From positions 1-20,021 of the IMG/VR virus record IMGVR_UViG_3300017613_000216: a stretch of 20,021 nucleotides of DNA; one strand, written 5' to 3'. Positions within the stretch are counted from its first letter, which is position 1; every line of letters starts with the position of its first letter. The notes beneath the pieces were generated by a model that saw nothing but the letters and a program-made list of their open reading frames with translations, ran no database searches and was not told where the DNA came from. Positions 240-8,728 of the stretch are shown piece by piece. The stretch comes from a virus. The translations under genes and the position numbers were made by a program.

Positions 240-620
240 ATGAGTAAAGTAGCAACAGGTATCGCAGCTTTTGTAAACCTTACGGAAACTGAGACCTATA
301 ACGGCAAAGATACAGGAGCCTACACTGTCACCCTTACCTTGGATGATGATGAGGCAAAGAAGCTTGAGAAGATGGGAGTAAACCTTAAGGAGTACAAGAA
401 TCAAAAGCAGCGTAAGTTCAAGACCACTTATGATAACTTCACTGTTGTTGATGTTAACGACGACATTGTATCTAAGAATATCCCTTATGGTTCTAAGGTA
501 CGTGTTCTTTGGAAAGATGGTGACAAACACCCACAATTTGGAACACCTACCTATCTCCAAAAGATTCGTGTTCTTGAGTACTCTGAGAATGAGATGGACG
601 ACATTCCTTCGGAGTTCTAA
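240..620 (+). CDS. Single-stranded DNA-binding protein (T7 gp2.5 role, short form)
   Basis: This 126-aa protein is predicted to coat single-stranded DNA at the replication fork. It is rich in alternating beta-strand sequence, with the segment GAYTVTLTLDDDEAKKLEKM near residue 35 and an IPYGSKVRVLW strand near 87-97. That pattern is typical of the short OB-fold SSBs of marine T7-like phages. T7 gp2.5 is much longer (232 aa), so this is a minimal version. The C-terminus is acidic and ends in Glu-Phe, as the gp2.5 tail ends in Phe, which in T7 contacts the polymerase. The start is fixed by AGGAGA at 227-232, 7 nt before the ATG. It is the first gene after the promoter at 155-183 and lies directly upstream of the primase-helicase, the usual T7-like order. 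Confidence 0.8.
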   Translation: MSKVATGIAAFVNLTETETYNGKDTGAYTVTLTLDDDEAKKLEKMGVNLKEYKNQKQRKFKTTYDNFTVVDVNDDIVSKNIPYGSKVRVLWKDGDKHPQFGTPTYLQKIRVLEYSENEMDDIPSEF

Positions 621-705
621 AGTAACTTAAGAAGTCCCTAAGGGGTGCATTAATGTTGCATGAGTCGGTAGCGAGGCGTTTGGGAAGGCCGATGGTTTTT
701 ATTGT
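621..705 (+). promoter_or_regulatory. SSB-helicase intergenic region; possible weak attenuator or RNA structure
   Basis: This 85-nt gap is the second largest in the window. It holds a CTTAAG word (626-631), GTCCCTAAGGG (634-644), a CATTAATG palindrome flanked by TGCA repeats, and then a GC-rich stretch (about 661-693) where TCGG at 664-667 could pair with CCGA near 689-692. A TTTTTATT run follows. The stem is only 4-5 bp, so a terminator is doubtful, but partial attenuation would lower helicase relative to SSB. No clear Shine-Dalgarno site precedes the ATG at 706. Confidence 0.25.
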
Positions 706-2358
706 ATGGAAGTGGATGTGAAAATGGGTGAGTTAATTAAGAAGACTGCCTGTCCTAAGTGTCGAGAGAAGGGACAGGATAACTCAGGTAATAACTTAGC
801 AGTCTACACTGACGGAGAGTACTGCTACAGTTGTCATTATTCCTCTGGAGAGGGACAAAAGAACAACGTAAGAGACAAGCTCTTAAGTAGGAATGGAAGG
901 AAGTTCGAGATGACTGGTGTAGCTGGAGCAATTAAGGATCGTAAGATTTCTCAAGCAATTGTTGAGAAGTTCGGTGTGACTATTGAGAAGCATGAGGACA
1001 TCATTACCAAACACCATTACCCATATTACGATGTGGATACTGGAGAAGCTGTAGGTACTAAGATTCGTATGGGTGTCAACAAGGACTTCAGAACCACTGG
1101 TACTTTTGAGAACACTGGTCTCTTTGGACAGAACGTCTGGAGAGAAGGTGGTAAGTTCATTACTGTTACAGAAGGTGAGGCAGATGCACTTGCAGTAGCT
1201 GAAATGTTTGATGGTCGTTGGCCCGTAGTCTCCATTAAGAGAGGCAGTGGGTCGGCTGAGAAGGACATTAAAGAATCCTTGGAATGGCTTGAGACATTTG
1301 AAAACATCGTCCTGTGCTTTGACTCTGATGCTCCCGGTAAGAAGGCAGTCGAGGCAGTACTTCCATTGTTCTCTCATGGGAAGGTTAAAGTAGTTAGTCT
1401 GCCCATGAAGGATGCCGGAGACATGCTTAAGAACTCCAGAGTTAAGGAGTTTGTGGATTGCTGGTGGTCTGCTAAGGCATATCGTCCGGTAGATGTAGTC
1501 TCCTTATCTGATGAGTCATGTTGGGATGCCTTTGTCAAGAGGGGTACTGAAGAAATCACACCTTTCCCTGAGGCATACGGTAAGCTTAATGCCATGATGA
1601 ATGGTGGTGTAGCGGCCGGAGAGGTTACTGTGATTGGTGCTTTGACTTCAGTAGGTAAATCAACTATGGTCTATAACCTACTCTATGGTATGGCTACTGA
1701 AGGGAATAAGAAGATCGGTGCAGTCTTCCTTGAGAGTGACAAGGGAGAGACTGTAGAGAAGGTTGTCAGTCTACACTCAGGTGAGAACATATCGTTAATT
1801 CCTGCAGATGAACGTGACAACTCCCTCTATAAGGAGTATTATAAGGACTTCGTTAAGGACGACAAGGTACATATCTTGGATCACTTAGGTTCCTCCGATT
1901 CTGATGAACTCTTCATGAAGATGAGGTTCATGGTTAAAGGTTTAGATTGTGACATTATTATCCTTGATCCTCTTCAGGCTGCAGTAATGTCCAATGACAA
2001 CGGAGTAATTGATGAGTTCATGGATCGTTGTCTTAAGCTTGCTAAGGAAACTGGAGTAGGTATTATCATCGTGAGCCACATGAGAAAACCACAGGCTAAG
2101 GATGCTCATGATGTAAACGAATACGACATGAAGGGGTCCGGAAGCATTAATCAGATTGCCTTTAACACAATACTCCTAAGCAGGGACAAGATGTCCGAAG
2201 ATGAGTACACAAGGAACTGTACTAAGGTGCAGCTTGTGAAGTGCCGAAGGACTGGACGAACTGGTCTTGCTGGTTGGATGTACTATGAAAATGAAACAAG
2301 CCGTATGATTGCTGGACAACCCCCGGAGATTGAGGCAGTAGAAAATGAGGAGTTCTAA
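706..2358 (+). CDS. DNA primase-helicase (T7 gp4-like)
   Basis: This 550-aa bifunctional enzyme makes RNA primers and unwinds DNA as a DnaB-type ring at the fork. It has an N-terminal zinc ribbon with Cys16, Cys19, Cys40 and Cys43, then a TOPRIM fold with EGE at 156-158 and DSD at 206-208. The RecA-type helicase domain has a Walker A P-loop (TSVGKST, Lys318), a Walker B ending at Asp421 (IIILDP) and the VSHMRKP and GSGSINQ motifs. Its length matches T7 gp4 (566 aa). The C-terminus is acidic and ends Glu-Glu-Phe, like the T7 gp4 tail that docks on polymerase. The start is uncertain: ATG 706 lacks a ribosome site, while the in-frame ATG at 724 has a weak GGAAG upstream and keeps every domain. 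The TAATG junction couples it to the HNH gene. Confidence 0.95.
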   Translation: MEVDVKMGELIKKTACPKCREKGQDNSGNNLAVYTDGEYCYSCHYSSGEGQKNNVRDKLLSRNGRKFEMTGVAGAIKDRKISQAIVEKFGVTIEKHEDIITKHHYPYYDVDTGEAVGTKIRMGVNKDFRTTGTFENTGLFGQNVWREGGKFITVTEGEADALAVAEMFDGRWPVVSIKRGSGSAEKDIKESLEWLETFENIVLCFDSDAPGKKAVEAVLPLFSHGKVKVVSLPMKDAGDMLKNSRVKEFVDCWWSAKAYRPVDVVSLSDESCWDAFVKRGTEEITPFPEAYGKLNAMMNGGVAAGEVTVIGALTSVGKSTMVYNLLYGMATEGNKKIGAVFLESDKGETVEKVVSLHSGENISLIPADERDNSLYKEYYKDFVKDDKVHILDHLGSSDSDELFMKMRFMVKGLDCDIIILDPLQAAVMSNDNGVIDEFMDRCLKLAKETGVGIIIVSHMRKPQAKDAHDVNEYDMKGSGSINQIAFNTILLSRDKMSEDEYTRNCTKVQLVKCRRTGRTGLAGWMYYENETSRMIAGQPPEIEAVENEEF

Positions 2359-2771
2359 TGAGTAGCGACATTAAAAGATTACGAAGGTCTCTGTATCTTA
2401 AGCAGGAACATAATTACATTTGTGAGGTATGTATGGAGGAGTACCCTGAAGAAGTCCTTGAGTTCCACCACCCTGATCCTAATGAGAAAGAGTTAGGACT
2501 TAAGGCAAGTAACTGGACTAAGAAAAACTTAAAGAATGTTCTTGACGAAGCAGATAAATGTAATGTATTATGTTCTAATTGCCATAGGTTGGAGCATGTA
2601 GCCATAAAGAAAGGTGAGAGTATATTAAATGACGAAGAAACTTATCTGCGATATAGAAACCACCGCTTTACCGATACGGAAGGATTCAAAAGTCTGGATG
2701 GTAGGGACGTTGGATTTGGAGACACAAACAATAAACAACTTCTGTTACCCTTGGAACCCCCAGAAGATTAA
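2358..2771 (+). CDS. HNH endonuclease
   Basis: This 137-aa protein has a zinc-bound HNH (beta-beta-alpha metal) nuclease fold. Cys22-Cys25 and Cys72-Cys75 form the zinc site, and EFHH (His37, His38) plus NCHRLEH (His76, His80) supply the nuclease core. The domain is finished by about residue 85. The remaining 47 residues are charged and low in recognisable motifs, and their codons overlap the DNA polymerase start out of frame by 143 nt. The start is ATG 2358, sharing one base with the helicase TAA, with GAGGAG 5 nt away. Small HNH genes beside replication genes are common in T7-like phages and often act as free-standing homing nucleases. A role in host DNA breakdown is equally possible, and the target is unknown. 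Confidence 0.85.
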   Translation: MSSDIKRLRRSLYLKQEHNYICEVCMEEYPEEVLEFHHPDPNEKELGLKASNWTKKNLKNVLDEADKCNVLCSNCHRLEHVAIKKGESILNDEETYLRYRNHRFTDTEGFKSLDGRDVGFGDTNNKQLLLPLEPPED

Positions 2772-4380
2772 GGAACTCAAAGAGCTTCTTAATTCTTACG
2801 ATGAAATAATAGGCCACAACTTCATTAGATTTGATGCGCCTACTCTTAAGAAGCTCTTGGGTGTGACTGTAGAACCTAAGAAGATTGTGGACACTTTAGT
2901 ATTGTCTAAACTCTATCACCCTAACTTAGAAGGAGGACATTCTCTAGGTTCTTGGGGTGAGAGACTTAACTTTCCAAAAGGAGATTATAATGATTGGTCT
3001 AAGCTTACAGAAGAGATGGTCAAGTACTGCGAACAGGACTTACGTGTTACAGGTAAGACCTACGAAGTACTTAAGAACCGCCTACAAGAGTTTGGTGAAG
3101 TTTCTCAAGTAGATGAACACAAAACTCTACAGGTGATACATAGGCAAATTGAACATGGTTGGTTACTTGATCAGAAGAGGGCCTATGGTTTACTTGCGGA
3201 ACTTAAAGAGAAACAAATGGAACTGGAGGATAAGGTTCATGAAGTCTTCAAACCACTCCCTAAATTTCTTAGGAAGATTACACCGGAGAAGAGAAAAGAG
3301 AGTGAAGTTTTTAAAAAAGGCGGTCTTAAGTTTCTCGGTGATGATTGGACTACTGTGGTGGGTGTATTTTCTAGGGTAGAGTTTCCTGAGTTCAACTTAG
3401 GAAGTCGTCAACAAATAGGGAAGTATCTTCAGTACTTCGGATGGAAACCTAAGGAGTTTACAGACAAAGGTCAGCCTAAGGTGGACGAGGAGGTACTTAA
3501 GAAGGTCCAAGGAATACCTGAAGCTTCTCTTATTGCTGAGTATCTTTTGATTGTCAAAAGGGTTGCTCAGGTCAGATCTTGGGTAGAGAAAGTAGAGGAA
3601 GATGGTAGAGTTCATGGTTCAGTTGATACGATTGGTGCAGTTACTAATAGGATGACACACTCCGGTCCCAATATGGCCCAAGTCCCTGCGGTCTACAGCC
3701 CTTATGGGAAGGAATGTAGGAGTTGTTGGGTAGTCCCTAATGGTTACAAGTTAGTTGGTTGTGACGCTGCAGGACTAGAACTTAGAATGTTGGCACACTA
3801 TATGAATGATGAGGAGTACACAAATGAAATCCTTAACGGAGACATCCACACAGCAAATCAACTTGCCGCTGGACTTGCAACTAGAGATTCTGCGAAGACT
3901 TTTATATACGCTTTCCTCTACGGAGCAGGAGATGCTAAGATCGGAAGTATTGTTGGAGGGTCTGCTAAAGCAGGAGCCAATCTTAAAAAGAAGTTTCTTG
4001 AGAACACACCAAGTCTTGCTGATCTTAGGGAACGAGTTGAGAAGTCATGTGCCAGAGGGTATCTTAAGGGACTGGACGGGAGAAAGTTAATCATAAGATC
4101 ACCTCATGCAGCCCTTAATACTCTTCTTCAGTCTGCTGGTGCTATTGTCATGAAAAAGGCATTGACACTTTTAGATGAGTATGCTACTATATGGAAACTA
4201 GATTATCACTTCGTCGGTAATATTCATGATGAAGTACAAGTAGAAGTTAGAGAAGACCAAGCAGATAAGTTCGGATACCTTGCAGTTGAATGTATTAAGG
4301 CAGCAGGGGTAGAGTTAAACATGAGATGTCCTTTGGATGCCGACTATAAAGTAGGTGATACATGGGCAGACACACATTAA
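2629..4380 (+). CDS. Family A DNA polymerase with 3'-5' exonuclease (T7 gp5-like)
   Basis: This 583-aa protein is the replicative polymerase. Exonuclease motifs are DIE (Asp8, Glu10), NFIRFD (Asp69) and YCEQD (Asp137). Polymerase motif A is GCDAAGLELR (Asp379). Motif B is RDSAKTFIYAFLYG (Arg419, Lys423, Tyr427). Motif C is IHDE (Asp534). Tyr427 aligns with T7 Tyr526, the residue known to allow dideoxynucleotide use, where E. coli Pol I has Phe762. The run from GRVHGSV to the C-terminus follows T7 gp5 closely, including LDGRK and SPHAALNTLLQSAGA. It is about 120 residues shorter than T7 gp5 (704 aa), partly because the thumb insertion that holds thioredoxin in T7 is short here (about residues 209-253). 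The start has AAGGTGAG 10 nt upstream and lies inside the HNH gene. Confidence 0.97.
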   Translation: MTKKLICDIETTALPIRKDSKVWMVGTLDLETQTINNFCYPWNPQKIKELKELLNSYDEIIGHNFIRFDAPTLKKLLGVTVEPKKIVDTLVLSKLYHPNLEGGHSLGSWGERLNFPKGDYNDWSKLTEEMVKYCEQDLRVTGKTYEVLKNRLQEFGEVSQVDEHKTLQVIHRQIEHGWLLDQKRAYGLLAELKEKQMELEDKVHEVFKPLPKFLRKITPEKRKESEVFKKGGLKFLGDDWTTVVGVFSRVEFPEFNLGSRQQIGKYLQYFGWKPKEFTDKGQPKVDEEVLKKVQGIPEASLIAEYLLIVKRVAQVRSWVEKVEEDGRVHGSVDTIGAVTNRMTHSGPNMAQVPAVYSPYGKECRSCWVVPNGYKLVGCDAAGLELRMLAHYMNDEEYTNEILNGDIHTANQLAAGLATRDSAKTFIYAFLYGAGDAKIGSIVGGSAKAGANLKKKFLENTPSLADLRERVEKSCARGYLKGLDGRKLIIRSPHAALNTLLQSAGAIVMKKALTLLDEYATIWKLDYHFVGNIHDEVQVEVREDQADKFGYLAVECIKAAGVELNMRCPLDADYKVGDTWADTH

Positions 4381-4401
4381 ACACTTAAGGAGTGCTTAAG
4401 A

Positions 4402-4599
4402 ATGTTAACACCTGAAGAACTAGAAGAAGAACAAGACACACGCTGTATTTTAGCTGATGATGGTTACTATTACACGATTCAGAGAGCCATGAGAGATGAT
4501 TGCTTTGTATCGGACACTATCCGCTGTAGAAATTCTGTGTTAATAACAGGTGAAAGTATTAGAGCTTTAAGAGGAGATATAGATGCAGAAGAAACCTAA
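4402..4599 (+). CDS. Small acidic protein of unknown function
   Basis: This 65-aa protein is not recognised. It is acidic at the N-terminus (ELEEEQD), with Cys14, Cys34 and Cys42, no membrane segment and no known motif. It begins 21 nt after the polymerase stop, with AAGGAG 9 nt before the ATG, and overlaps the exonuclease gene by 17 nt. The placement and good ribosome site argue that it is translated. T7-like phages often hold small accessory proteins between polymerase and exonuclease genes, which is the only context for a role. Confidence 0.7.
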   Translation: MLTPEELEEEQDTRCILADDGYYYTIQRAMRDDCFVSDTIRCRNSVLITGESIRALRGDIDAEET

Positions 4600-5482
4600 G
4601 AAGACTTTAGACACCTTAGTTGGTGATGTTTATAATTTAATGAAGAACCGTAACGTTGCTGAAGGTGTAGATGTTCATAAGGAGATTGAACATTTCGGTG
4701 AGGCAATGAAGGACATCATGAAGAAAGAGTTCCTTCCGAACAACGGTTACTCCTCAAGAGGAAACTTACGACTCTCCTCAATTGGTAAACCTGATCGTCA
4801 ACAATGGTACTCACAACGGAAGTTTGGAGGAGAGAAGATTCAACCACACACCTACATCAAGTTCATGTATGGTCACATGGTTGAGGAATTAGTCCTTGCT
4901 TTGGTACGTATGGCGGGACATGAAGTTACTGATGAACAGAAACAATGTGAAGTTGGCGGTGTCAAGGGACATATGGATTGTAAGATTGACGGTACTGTTG
5001 TCGATGTTAAGTCCACCAGTTCTTTTGGAATGAAGAAGTTCAAAGATGGTACCTTGGCAGCTTCAGATGCCTTCGGTTATGTGGATCAGATCAAAGCATA
5101 TGCTCATTCAGAAGGTGAAACAAATTGGGCTTGGTTAGCAATGGATAAATCAAATGGTACATTAGCAGTCCTTAAGTACGACCTGAAGGACACTAAACAC
5201 CCTATGTATCCTTTCTATTCTCAGGACATTGAGGAGAGAGTGGAGCATGTAAAAAAGTCCGTAGAGCTTCCAGACCCACCGGAGTATTGTTCTTCTCCGA
5301 TTGCAGATGGCAAGTCAGGAAACTTAAAGCTGTCCTCACAATGCGGCTACTGTCAATACAAAAAACATTGTTACCCAGACTTAAGGGCCTTCGCCTACTC
5401 TACTGGTCCTAAGTTTTTAACACACGTAGCTAAAGAACCTAACGTACCAGAGATTGATTTAACAGAAAACAAGGAGTTCTAA
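4583..5482 (+). CDS. PD-(D/E)XK exonuclease with C-terminal Cys cluster (T7 gp6 position)
   Basis: This 299-aa protein is predicted to degrade DNA as a RecB/Cas4-type nuclease, probably in the role of T7 gp6 exonuclease, whose map position it occupies. The core is GHMD (Asp132) followed by VVDVKS (Asp141, Lys143), a helix with YVDQIKAY (Gln169), and an upstream GHMVEE (Glu101/102). The C-terminal pattern Cys254-x2-Cys257-x5-Cys263, with Cys236 before it, resembles the iron-sulfur staple of Cas4 and AddB nucleases. Cluster binding is inference. The last residues are acidic and end Glu-Phe, as in SSB and helicase of this phage. GAGGAG 6 nt before ATG 4583 sets the start, inside the previous gene. 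Confidence 0.85.
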   Translation: MQKKPKKTLDTLVGDVYNLMKNRNVAEGVDVHKEIEHFGEAMKDIMKKEFLPNNGYSSRGNLRLSSIGKPDRQQWYSQRKFGGEKIQPHTYIKFMYGHMVEELVLALVRMAGHEVTDEQKQCEVGGVKGHMDCKIDGTVVDVKSTSSFGMKKFKDGTLAASDAFGYVDQIKAYAHSEGETNWAWLAMDKSNGTLAVLKYDLKDTKHPMYPFYSQDIEERVEHVKKSVELPDPPEYCSSPIADGKSGNLKLSSQCGYCQYKKHCYPDLRAFAYSTGPKFLTHVAKEPNVPEIDLTENKEF

Positions 5483-5485
5483 AGA

Positions 5486-5677
5486 ATGATTAAACTTGAG
5501 ATCGTATCCACACCTAAACCACACCGTTTCAAGGAACAAGTGGAGGGTTACTTAAACGACGGTTGGGTCATGAGCGGCACCCCTTTCATCTCCGATATTG
5601 GTGTCATAACTGTGGCACTAACTAAAGAAACTAAAACAGTCCCTAAGAAGGCTTCCAATGCCAAAGTACAGGAATAA
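5486..5677 (+). CDS. DUF1737-like small protein
   Basis: This 63-aa protein has the pattern EQVEGYLNDGWVMSGTPF, followed by a strand ending in VALTK. That is the hallmark of the short DUF1737 family (strand, helix, G-W-x-x-x-G-x-P, strand). Function of the family is unknown. The last 15 residues are Lys-rich and probably disordered. AAGGAG (5471-5476) lies within the final codons of the exonuclease gene, 9 nt before this ATG, so expression is tied to it. The gene overlaps endonuclease I by 20 nt. Confidence 0.75.
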   Translation: MIKLEIVSTPKPHRFKEQVEGYLNDGWVMSGTPFISDIGVITVALTKETKTVPKKASNAKVQE

Positions 5678-6014
5678 ATTTGAAGAGGAAATTGCAGGGG
5701 TCTTAGGTGACTCCTGCAGCTATGAGGACGCTAAAGTTCCCTACATAGTCAAGAAGAACTACATTCCTGATTTCATTTCTAAAGAAGTCCCTAAGATTTA
5801 CTTTGAAGCCAAAGGTTACTTCAGGGTAGGAGACACACAGAAGTACAAAGCTATTAGGGATAGTCTTAAGAAAGATGAGGAGCTTGTGTTTATTCTTTAT
5901 AATCCCGAGAAGAAACTAAGGAAGGGAGCTAAGATGACAATGGCCCAATGGTGTGATAAAGAAGGCTTAAGATGGTTTACTAAGGAGGATTGTAAAAATG
6001 CCCTTGACATTTGA
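5658..6014 (+). CDS. Endonuclease I, Holliday-junction resolvase (T7 gp3-like)
   Basis: This 118-aa enzyme should cut branched DNA (four-way junctions) to clear replication and packaging intermediates and help break down host DNA. It carries the T7 endonuclease I signature in order: a Glu near the N-terminus (Glu9, matching T7 Glu20), KVPY, PDF (Asp38, matching Asp55), YFEAKG (Glu50 and Lys52, matching Glu65 and Lys67), and the late KLRKGAKMTMAQWCDKEGL segment. All four catalytic residues are present. It is a little shorter than T7 gp3 (149 aa), lacking the N-terminal extension that swaps between subunits in T7. In T7 this gene precedes primase and polymerase; here it follows the exonuclease. 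AAGAAGG lies 6 nt before the ATG. Confidence 0.9.
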   Translation: MPKYRNKFEEEIAGVLGDSCSYEDAKVPYIVKKNYIPDFISKEVPKIYFEAKGYFRVGDTQKYKAIRDSLKKDEELVFILYNPEKKLRKGAKMTMAQWCDKEGLRWFTKEDCKNALDI

Positions 6015-6846: not shown

Positions 6847-6998
6847 TGACAGACAAGGACTTCATGTTACACGTACCATTAATTATTAGGATGATGAAGA
6901 ACTCCAGTACTCCATTGGAAATTCTTAAGGATTTCATTAATTTAACTGAAGAGCAAAGAGAAACAGTAACGAGAATGTATGAGGTATATAAGATATGA
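6846..6998 (+). CDS. 50-aa ORF wedged between MazG-like and RNR genes
   Basis: ATG 6846 shares one base with the MazG-like stop (TAATG), and the ORF runs 50 codons to a TGA at 6996-6998 that overlaps the RNR start (ATGA). The product begins MTDKDFMLH, contains IIRMMKNSSTPLEILKDFI and ends with a charged helix (LTEEQRETVTRMYEVY). This helix-turn-helix-like pattern of two or three helices is seen, but no family is recognised. The exact fit into the gap, with coupled starts at both ends, is the main reason to accept it. No strong ribosome site is present, so it probably depends on reinitiation. Confidence 0.7.
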   Translation: MTDKDFMLHVPLIIRMMKNSSTPLEILKDFINLTEEQRETVTRMYEVYKI

Positions 6999-8728
6999 CT
7001 GAGGTAATGAACTATGGACCTAAACTGGTTGCAGCACAACAAATACAGAAGGAAAAGCATCGCGGCCCTAACGAGTCTTTCCATGAGAGTAAGTGTAGGG
7101 TTGCTGGTACTCTATGTGACGATGAGAGTCACCGCCAAGCAATTAAAGAGATACTTCTTGATCAACGGTTCCTTGAAGCTGGAAGAGTACAGGCGACTGT
7201 TGGTCTTGAGAAGGATACAACTCCATACAATTGCTTCGTCAGTGGTACCATCGAAGACAGCATGGACAGCATCATGGACAGGGCTAAAGAAGCTGCTGAG
7301 ACAATGAGGAAAGGTGGAGGTATTGGTTATGACTTTAGCAACATTCGTCCTAGTGGTGATCGTATTGTTTCTTTGGGTAGTACTGCTAGTGGACCTTTAT
7401 CCTTTATGGAAATCTTCGATGCTGTTTGTAACACTATCGTGTCTGCTGGTCATCGTAGAGGTGCACAAATGGGGGTACTCAGAGTTGACCATCCAGACAT
7501 TGAGTTGTTTATCAGAGCAAAGCAGAATGAAGGTAAACTAAAGAACTTCAACTTGTCCGTTGGTATTACTGATGAGTTCATGGAGTGTGTCAAAGCAGAT
7601 ACATCATTTGATCTCAAGTTTGAAGGTAAGATTTACAAGACTGTACGTGCAGTAGACTTATGGGATGAGATCATGAGATCAACATGGGACTGGGCTGAAC
7701 CCGGTGTGTTGTTCATTGATCAGTTAAATAGGATGAATAATCTGTGGTACTGTGAGGACATTGCAGCAACCAACCCCTGTGCTGAACAACCTCTACCACC
7801 CAATGGTGCTTGTTTGTTAGGTTCTTTTAACTTGACTAAGTACGTCACAAGAGTTATATTGGATGATCATGGTAAGACATGGAGACATGAGTTTGACTTC
7901 GAACAGTTCAAACACGACATACCACACATCGTAAGGATGATTGACAATGTTATTGACTACGCCACATATCCGTTACCTGCCCAAGAACACGAAGCTAAGT
8001 CTAAACGTAGAATGGGACTCGGAATTACAGGCTTGGCGAACACTGGCGAGGCTTGTGCCGGATCATATGGGACCAAGAACTTTATTGAGTTTACCGAGCG
8101 TGTACTCACTATCCTACGTGACACCGCCTATCGAACCTCAGTAGCTCTTGCAGTGGAGAAGGGTGCTTTCCCTGAGTTCACTAAGGACTACTTAAGCAGT
8201 GCCTTTGTATTAACTTTACCAGAGGACATTCAAGAGGACATAGCAACTCATGGAATACGTAACAGTCACCTCCTATCTATTGCTCCCTGTGGCACTATCT
8301 CTTTCTGTGCTGATAACATTAGCAGTGGAATTGAGCCTGTATTCAGTCACACTACTGATAGAATTATTCAGACCCCTGAAGGACCAACAACAGTCAGAGT
8401 CAGTGATTACGGACATAGGGTGTTTGGTGTTGAGGGTGCCACTGCTGATAGTCTTTCTGTGGCTGATCATCTGGGTGTCCTTACAACCACTCAAAGGTAT
8501 ATTGATTCTGCTGTGAGTAAGACACTCAACGTTGGTGATGATGTTACCTTCAAGGAGTTCAAGGAGATTTACATGACTGCATGGCAGGAAGGAGCAAAGG
8601 GTTGCACCACATTCAGAGTATCAGGTAAACGCTTTGGCATTATGCACAAGGTAGTTGATGAACCTGCTGAGACTGAAGGTGCTGCTTGTTACTATGATCC
8701 TGAGACTGGTAAGAAGGAATGTGAATGA
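6995..8728 (+). CDS. nrdJ: Class II (adenosylcobalamin-dependent) ribonucleotide reductase
   Basis: This 577-aa enzyme reduces ribonucleotides to deoxyribonucleotides for phage DNA synthesis. It needs vitamin B12 and works without a second subunit. Landmarks are Cys80 (YNCFVS) and Cys273 (GACLLGS), the redox pair; the finger loop NPCAEQPLP with Asn260, Cys262 (thiyl radical) and Glu264; GGGIGYDFSNIRPSGD near 105-120; RRMGLGITGLANTGEA; and APCGTISFCADNISSGIEP (Cys432). There is no N-terminal ATP-cone, so it is a compact form. The C-terminus has Cys residues (GAACYYDP...ECE) that may relay electrons. No NrdB gene is nearby, supporting class II. It is coupled to neighbours by ATGA overlaps at both ends. 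B12-dependent RNR is known from SIO1-like roseophages and other marine phages. Confidence 0.93.
   Translation: MTEVMNYGPKLVAAQQIQKEKHRGPNESFHESKCRVAGTLCDDESHRQAIKEILLDQRFLEAGRVQATVGLEKDTTPYNCFVSGTIEDSMDSIMDRAKEAAETMRKGGGIGYDFSNIRPSGDRIVSLGSTASGPLSFMEIFDAVCNTIVSAGHRRGAQMGVLRVDHPDIELFIRAKQNEGKLKNFNLSVGITDEFMECVKADTSFDLKFEGKIYKTVRAVDLWDEIMRSTWDWAEPGVLFIDQLNRMNNLWYCEDIAATNPCAEQPLPPNGACLLGSFNLTKYVTRVILDDHGKTWRHEFDFEQFKHDIPHIVRMIDNVIDYATYPLPAQEHEAKSKRRMGLGITGLANTGEACAGSYGTKNFIEFTERVLTILRDTAYRTSVALAVEKGAFPEFTKDYLSSAFVLTLPEDIQEDIATHGIRNSHLLSIAPCGTISFCADNISSGIEPVFSHTTDRIIQTPEGPTTVRVSDYGHRVFGVEGATADSLSVADHLGVLTTTQRYIDSAVSKTLNVGDDVTFKEFKEIYMTAWQEGAKGCTTFRVSGKRFGIMHKVVDEPAETEGAACYYDPETGKKECE

Follow-up and report, generated by a model that had tools for sequence, protein, structure and literature searches.

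Textbooks use the replisome of phage T7 as a model. Both its single-stranded DNA-binding protein (SSB), gp2.5, and its helicase, gp4, end in an acidic stretch with a final phenylalanine (DEDGDF and SNDTDF). Tails of the T7 helicase bind the polymerase at two places, a basic patch at its front and another patch at its thioredoxin-binding domain (PMC12593628, PMC5997990), and K587, K589, R590 and R591, in the hairpin 575-590 of the polymerase, gp5, are named as key basic residues (PMC13384260). In Enterobacter phage Enc34 SSB (PF10991), as in bacterial and other phage SSBs, an acidic C-terminal segment serves for protein contacts (PMC5686142). The subject here is a replication module of a podovirus-like marine phage, contained in the 20,021 bases of IMG/VR record IMGVR_UViG_3300017613_000216 (positions 1 to 20,021, below the window), in which an SSB, a primase-helicase and an exonuclease all end in Glu-Phe. 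A first-pass annotation of the window suggested that all three ends are tails of the T7 kind, docking at one site on the polymerase.

The explanation that we favour, with a probability of roughly 0.8, is that the SSB and the primase-helicase carry T7-type tails, while the end of the exonuclease is lineage-specific and partly written by the ribosome site of the next gene. The features on which the argument turns are the following.

240..620, + strand: SSB gene, gp2.5-like; phrog_112, E 9e-5; all 134 distinct relatives end in F or L
585-617 (coding), + strand: acidic tail of the SSB, ENEMDDIPSEF, read from the sequence
706..2358, + strand: primase-helicase gene (ATG at 724 a possible start) with acidic tail ..IEAVENEEF; phrog_239, E 1.6e-156; DnaB_C and Toprim domains
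2629..4380, + strand: gene for a family A DNA polymerase, to which the tails may bind; PF00476, E 9e-46; model mean predicted local distance difference test (pLDDT) 86
3940..4056, + strand: polymerase residues 438-476 (I438, T460, R467, R476), candidate dock; from the conserved-column comparison of Leu- and Phe-tailed phages
4583..5482, + strand: exonuclease gene with a Cas4 (PD-D/EXK) domain and lineage-specific tail PEIDLTENKEF; phrog_1990, E 6e-41

Acidic tails of the SSB and the primase-helicase

Relatives were gathered by protein-anchored scans of IMG/VR and one genome scan, several hundred loci in all, to which one further scan added Bacteroidota-type phages. Over its last ten residues the SSB of the window carries a net charge of -4, the helicase one of -5 and the exonuclease one of -3, the last being the least acidic of the three. 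The SSB tail is acidic with a hydrophobic last residue, as in gp2.5, and the helicase tail (..AVENEEF) is acidic with a terminal Phe, as in gp4. Within the window's group both last residues are held with little change: for the SSB 122 F and 12 L among 134 distinct sequences, and for the helicase 134 F, 13 L and a single E among 148, with three changes on the tree in each case. Taken as pairs, SSB and helicase ends are F/F in 116 phages and L/L in 14, and the lone apparent mismatch, F/I, comes from a frame-shifted helicase (in L324) that in truth ends in GEDF. Most isolates are F/F, though not all; those that depart from it include CRP-13, RHEph21, S28-C10, S35-C6 and KM23-C739.

For these two proteins the T7 likeness claimed at first pass is borne out, both by the conserved hydrophobic last residue and by a joint change from F to L in one subclade. 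Their tails are of T7 type and selected at the protein level, and by analogy with T7 they would bind the replicative polymerase and tether both proteins to it.

Two individual loci may be described here. The helicase frame of L324 is broken at 2062-3691 of that locus, leaving two overlapping pieces, probably through a sequencing error. In L262 the SSB ends ..TTLAF and the helicase ..GLAFE, so that LAF is common to both and the helicase is one residue longer.

The joint switch from Phe to Leu and the polymerase

The L/L phages of the window's group make up one subclade, A (L210-L222, L229, L251-L260). Trees of the SSB and of the helicase built without the tails place A beside F-tailed phages, and its ends must therefore have changed in place. 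Leu tails also occur in another set, B, made up of Bacteroidota-type phages around L239, whose SSB homology is seen by profile (E 4e-5). It is mixed, for besides L/L it has 10 phages in which an SSB ending ..EL accompanies a helicase ending ..IPF, and a few other pairs. A rule that SSB and helicase share their last residue in all phages was considered and rejected, the Bacteroidota-type set giving L/F 12 times, F/L twice, L/I twice and others besides; the match between the two is a strong association only. In L450-L475, Bacteroidota-type phages from IMG/VR, the SSB ends ..AEL or ..VEL and the helicase ..IPF, the latter resembling the tip of bacterial SSB; their helicase may bind a different partner or one from the host.

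Does the polymerase register the switch? It has no acidic Phe tail of its own, ending ..WADTH in the window, with H as the last residue in 159 of 159. Against a baseline of 218 columns conserved in 142 F-tailed relatives, the polymerase of subclade A differs at four columns only: I438L and T460L (16 of 16 each) and R467T/K and R476K/Q (15 of 16 each). All four are changed in set B too, where 27 of the 218 are changed (hypergeometric P 2e-4), and the replacements at 438 and 460 are identical in all 24 of that set. As a control, 63 subclades with F tails were scanned; 29% of the columns changed in them were common to set B, and the 14 most-changed of the 63 had no change at 438, 467 or 476. The four window residues align with I537, T559, R566 and R590 of T7 gp5, a region which we take, from the T7 structure, to be in the fingers; K587, K589, R590 and R591 are presumably the front patch.

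The association extends beyond the two sets. Leu at both 438 and 460 is present in 48 of 49 phages with an SSB ending in L versus 8 of 129 with one ending in F, counts that include kin and so non-independent events, and the two arginines persist together in 108 phages of the SSB-F set and in none of the SSB-L set (phages with both genes, kin again included). Weighing against a docking interpretation are the exceptions to the association of tail and segment, namely L340, HTVC115P, L262 and L502. The tail switch and segment 438-476 are linked, though the link is correlative and has exceptions, and on the simplest view of the sequence comparison this segment would be part of the dock for both tails. 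A more specific proposal is that the fingers stretch 438-476 reads the last tail residue, I-T-R-R having become L-L-K/T-K/Q with Phe to Leu, by convergence or by segment exchange, so that tail and polymerase would form a co-evolving specificity code; this we put forward tentatively, at somewhat less than an even chance.

The main alternative is that the tail and the polymerase segment changed together by common descent, or by segment exchange for reasons unrelated to docking, and it too is a serious contender that falls a little short of even odds. It draws on the tree of residues 420-484 alone, in which A joins B, the two Leu-tailed sets being united by that segment as they would be by a recombined piece. 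L340 and HTVC115P are F/F yet have partly Leu-type segments, and the ten phages of the Bacteroidota group with SSB ..EL and helicase ..IPF have a Leu-type segment, which also suits it. What it explains less readily is that the polymerase tree without residues 420-484 keeps A among F-tailed phages, in accord with the tail-less SSB and helicase; that the same column scan of the helicase, the exonuclease and endonuclease I found nothing comparable; and that the four positions fall within 39 residues and adjoin the T7 front-patch position.

The end of the exonuclease

Is the nuclease a third member of the tail set, as was suggested at first pass? Two further features bear on the favoured explanation, in which its end is lineage-specific.

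5471..5476, + strand: AAGGAG, serving the next gene as its ribosome site and coding for Lys-Glu of the exonuclease tail; read from the sequence, the site being kept in L048, L055, L065, L068 and L194
5486..5677, + strand: small conserved open reading frame (ORF5486) using that site; 57 distinct relatives

An acidic Phe tail is not conserved in the exonuclease family, whose last residue takes 17 different forms among 146 distinct sequences and has changed at least 57 times. In the exonucleases closest to that of the window (68-74% identity) the end is NKQ, ITL, NKR, NAV, NGI and so on, without Phe; the KEF end of the window recurs in 0 of 156 exonucleases, and a search of IMG/VR with a degenerate pattern of the window tail gave no match. 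With AAGGAG kept at the same place, relatives end LKEV (L065, L068), LKEVS (L048, L055), EIRL (L017) and IKEFK (L194). Comparison of C-termini in relatives was the check proposed at first pass, and it finds the ribosome site kept while Phe is missing or non-terminal (KEV, KEVS, KEFK), the very pattern named in advance as one that would refute the nuclease proposal. Nor does the exonuclease follow the switch, for in L/L phages it ends in T, N or F. Its residues 296-299 have pLDDT below 50 in the predicted structure, and the tail is probably a fast-evolving, disordered end. Its Lys-Glu would be there because the codons double as the AAGGAG site of ORF5486, and its terminal Phe would be a lineage-specific change, present in no close relative.

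Several observations pull the other way. The nearest relative found is only 74% identical, so tail conservation is judged beyond that distance. Terminal F is found in 9 separate clades where 3.3 are expected (nominal P 0.006) and terminal [DE]F in 3 where 0.33 are expected (nominal P 0.005), the expectations resting on the 1,583 remaining gene ends of the same loci; as the origins of terminal F were ambiguous by parsimony, uniform clades were counted instead. Terminal Ile (P 0.0004) and Leu (P 0.03) are likewise over-represented, and the excess of F may be a general hydrophobic bias. Several of the F ends, read by eye, overlap the coding sequence of the next gene or occupy a conserved hydrophobic position. 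Some lineages may have a functional tail on the nuclease, and the best natural cases are L309, where all three proteins have acidic Phe tails (SSB ..VPEDF, helicase ..VVDEF, exonuclease ..VPDEF), and L352/L353, with exonuclease ..PDEF.

That the exonuclease is a third client of one polymerase dock, recruited to the fork via its Glu-Phe end, we consider unlikely. In its favour, the tail is predicted to be disordered and free, the family gained [DE]F ends on about three occasions (the window, L309 and L352/L353), and all three proteins of L309 have acidic tails closed by F. However, the lack of conservation, the indifference to the F-to-L switch, the sufficiency of the ribosome site as an account of Lys-Glu, the equal over-representation of other hydrophobic ends and the want of such a tail on the T7 exonuclease count against it.

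The word shared by three gene ends

What, then, of the 10 bp in which all three ends are written? The earlier observation is exact: GGAGTTCTAA stands at 611-620, 2349-2358 and 5473-5482, each time closing a gene (SSB ..PSEF, primase-helicase ..NEEF, Cas4-type exonuclease ..NKEF), and neither strand of the 20,021 bases has a fourth copy. Shuffled sequence gives 0.09, so the three are more than random sequence would supply. The G that opens the word closes a codon each time, TCG in the SSB, GAG in the helicase and AAG in the exonuclease. Two further features belong here.

2349..2352, + strand: GGAG within the tail codons of the helicase, 5 nucleotides ahead of the HNH start codon; read from the sequence
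2358..2771, + strand: HNH endonuclease gene, its start overlapping the helicase stop (ATG 2358-2360); phrog_3106, E 1.4e-20

The leading G of the helicase and exonuclease copies belongs to GGAG, which is 5 nucleotides ahead of the HNH start and 9 ahead of that of ORF5486, so its reading as a ribosome site at two of the three places is reasonable; after the SSB stop the next start is about 85 nucleotides off. The further idea that tail codons are doubly constrained survives in part: codons and ribosome site do overlap where the exonuclease and the helicase end, and in the exonuclease this accounts for Lys-Glu without being proof of selection on the tail.

The word is mostly fixed once a protein ends Glu-Phe, because GAG-TTC makes up half of the Glu-Phe codon pairs in the window (13 of 26) and TAA just over half of the stops (13 of 23). 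Naive independent odds that all three Glu-Phe ends take this form are about 2e-5, a figure to be read knowing that two of the leading Gs are part of ribosome sites. Among relatives, the full 10-mer closes 3 of 123 SSB genes, 19 of 164 helicase genes and 0 of 156 exonuclease genes, and helicase EF-stop is spelled by 11 different 9-mers. So many codon and stop spellings of the same ends indicate that selection acts on the peptide. What relatives conserve in the SSB and the helicase is how the peptide ends rather than the word that encodes it, and the 10-bp identity requires no DNA-level cause; the shared word would be the same two residues in preferred codons plus TAA, two of its three copies overlapping ribosome sites. 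DNA-level selection on GGAGTTCTAA was entertained and rejected, as relatives commonly carry synonymous and stop-codon changes. That selection acts on the word itself, perhaps as a regulatory signal or one that couples translation, with the peptide end a by-product, is largely refuted and very improbable, for in spite of the excess over 0.09 expected copies and the overlap of two of them with ribosome sites, the peptide end stays when codons and stops change in relatives, the SSB copy has no start codon nearby, and the stretch between SSB and helicase, searched for a regulatory RNA, gave no Rfam match and no unusual fold downstream of that copy (z-score 0.24).

Other features of the window

Profile searches find Toprim and DnaB-type helicase domains in a single chain in the primase-helicase. 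The gp2.5-type oligonucleotide-binding fold of the SSB depends on the phrog_112 match (E 9e-5), which covers 58 residues only, the Pfam PF10991 match being under its curated cut-off. The exonuclease has the family profile, PD-(D/E)XK core and conserved cysteines of a Cas4-domain enzyme; D132, D141, K143 and C236, C254, C257 and C263 are invariant in 26 sequences, and its predicted fold is closest to Cas4 and lambda-type exonucleases (E about 2e-4 to 3e-3). One small open reading frame separates the polymerase and exonuclease genes. ORF5486 has a weak DUF1737 match (PF08410, E 0.002), under the cut-off. Farther on are these two genes, and from about 9.5 kb onward the larger open reading frames are on the opposite strand.

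5658-6014: endonuclease I gene
6995-8728: ribonucleotide reductase gene

Judged by ribonucleotide reductase, the nearest contigs are L345-L348, fragments with up to 84% identity in that enzyme; the exonuclease has no match in them, a discord hinting at mosaic exchange of modules. Two short words are in excess, CTTAAG (40 copies, 9.4 expected) and GTCCCTAAG (8 copies, 0.21 expected), both within and between genes, and for each a codon-pair preference or a signal is possible.

Significance and comparison with known systems

To our knowledge, the polymerase residues that take up the last, hydrophobic residue of each tail are not settled. Natural Phe and Leu tail variants, with a few matching changes in the polymerase, are a natural experiment that makes the dock testable, and if the proposed reading is right, tail and dock would be a co-evolving specificity code of the replisome. 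That the tails and the polymerase segment change together, a correlative but directly testable result, is of more interest than the word at three gene ends. The latter does carry a caution for reading motifs in single genomes, as a ribosome site can spell a peptide end that mimics a functional tail.

How far can the T7 docking scheme be carried over? The same docking site, as posited at first pass, is at most partly transferable. R476, aligned with T7 R590, is kept, but the T7 front basic patch as a whole is not found in the window polymerase, which is without the 575-590 hairpin (W579, K587, K589). In place of the thioredoxin-binding domain there is a shortened loop, of 46 residues versus about 75 in T7, yet with 11 Lys or Arg.

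3247..3393, + strand: basic loop of the polymerase, residues 207-255; from alignment with T7 gp5, model confidence low (57-76)

The exonucleases differ as well, T7 gp6 ending LWRP and that of the window being of Cas4 type rather than gp6 type. The family and operon place of the latter are those of the Cas4-domain exonucleases typified by Roseobacter phage SIO1 (phrog_1990); the SIO1-type enzymes are ones which end EVDVE and whose helicases, unlike that of the window, are without an acidic Phe tail (..LKSYEG). Pelagibacter phages HTVC115P and HTVC104P have the gene order of the window (SSB, primase-helicase, polymerase, exonuclease) and, with tails NEEF/EDKF and IKEF/SSDF, its F on SSB and helicase, while their exonucleases, about 41% and 35% identical to that of the window, end IIEK and TPAS. 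Enc34 SSB resembles the window SSB in its acidic C-terminal segment, the PF10991 match being sub-threshold as noted. The SSB and helicase of the window, acidic at their ends and closed by Phe as are gp2.5 and gp4, join the known T7-type tail system.

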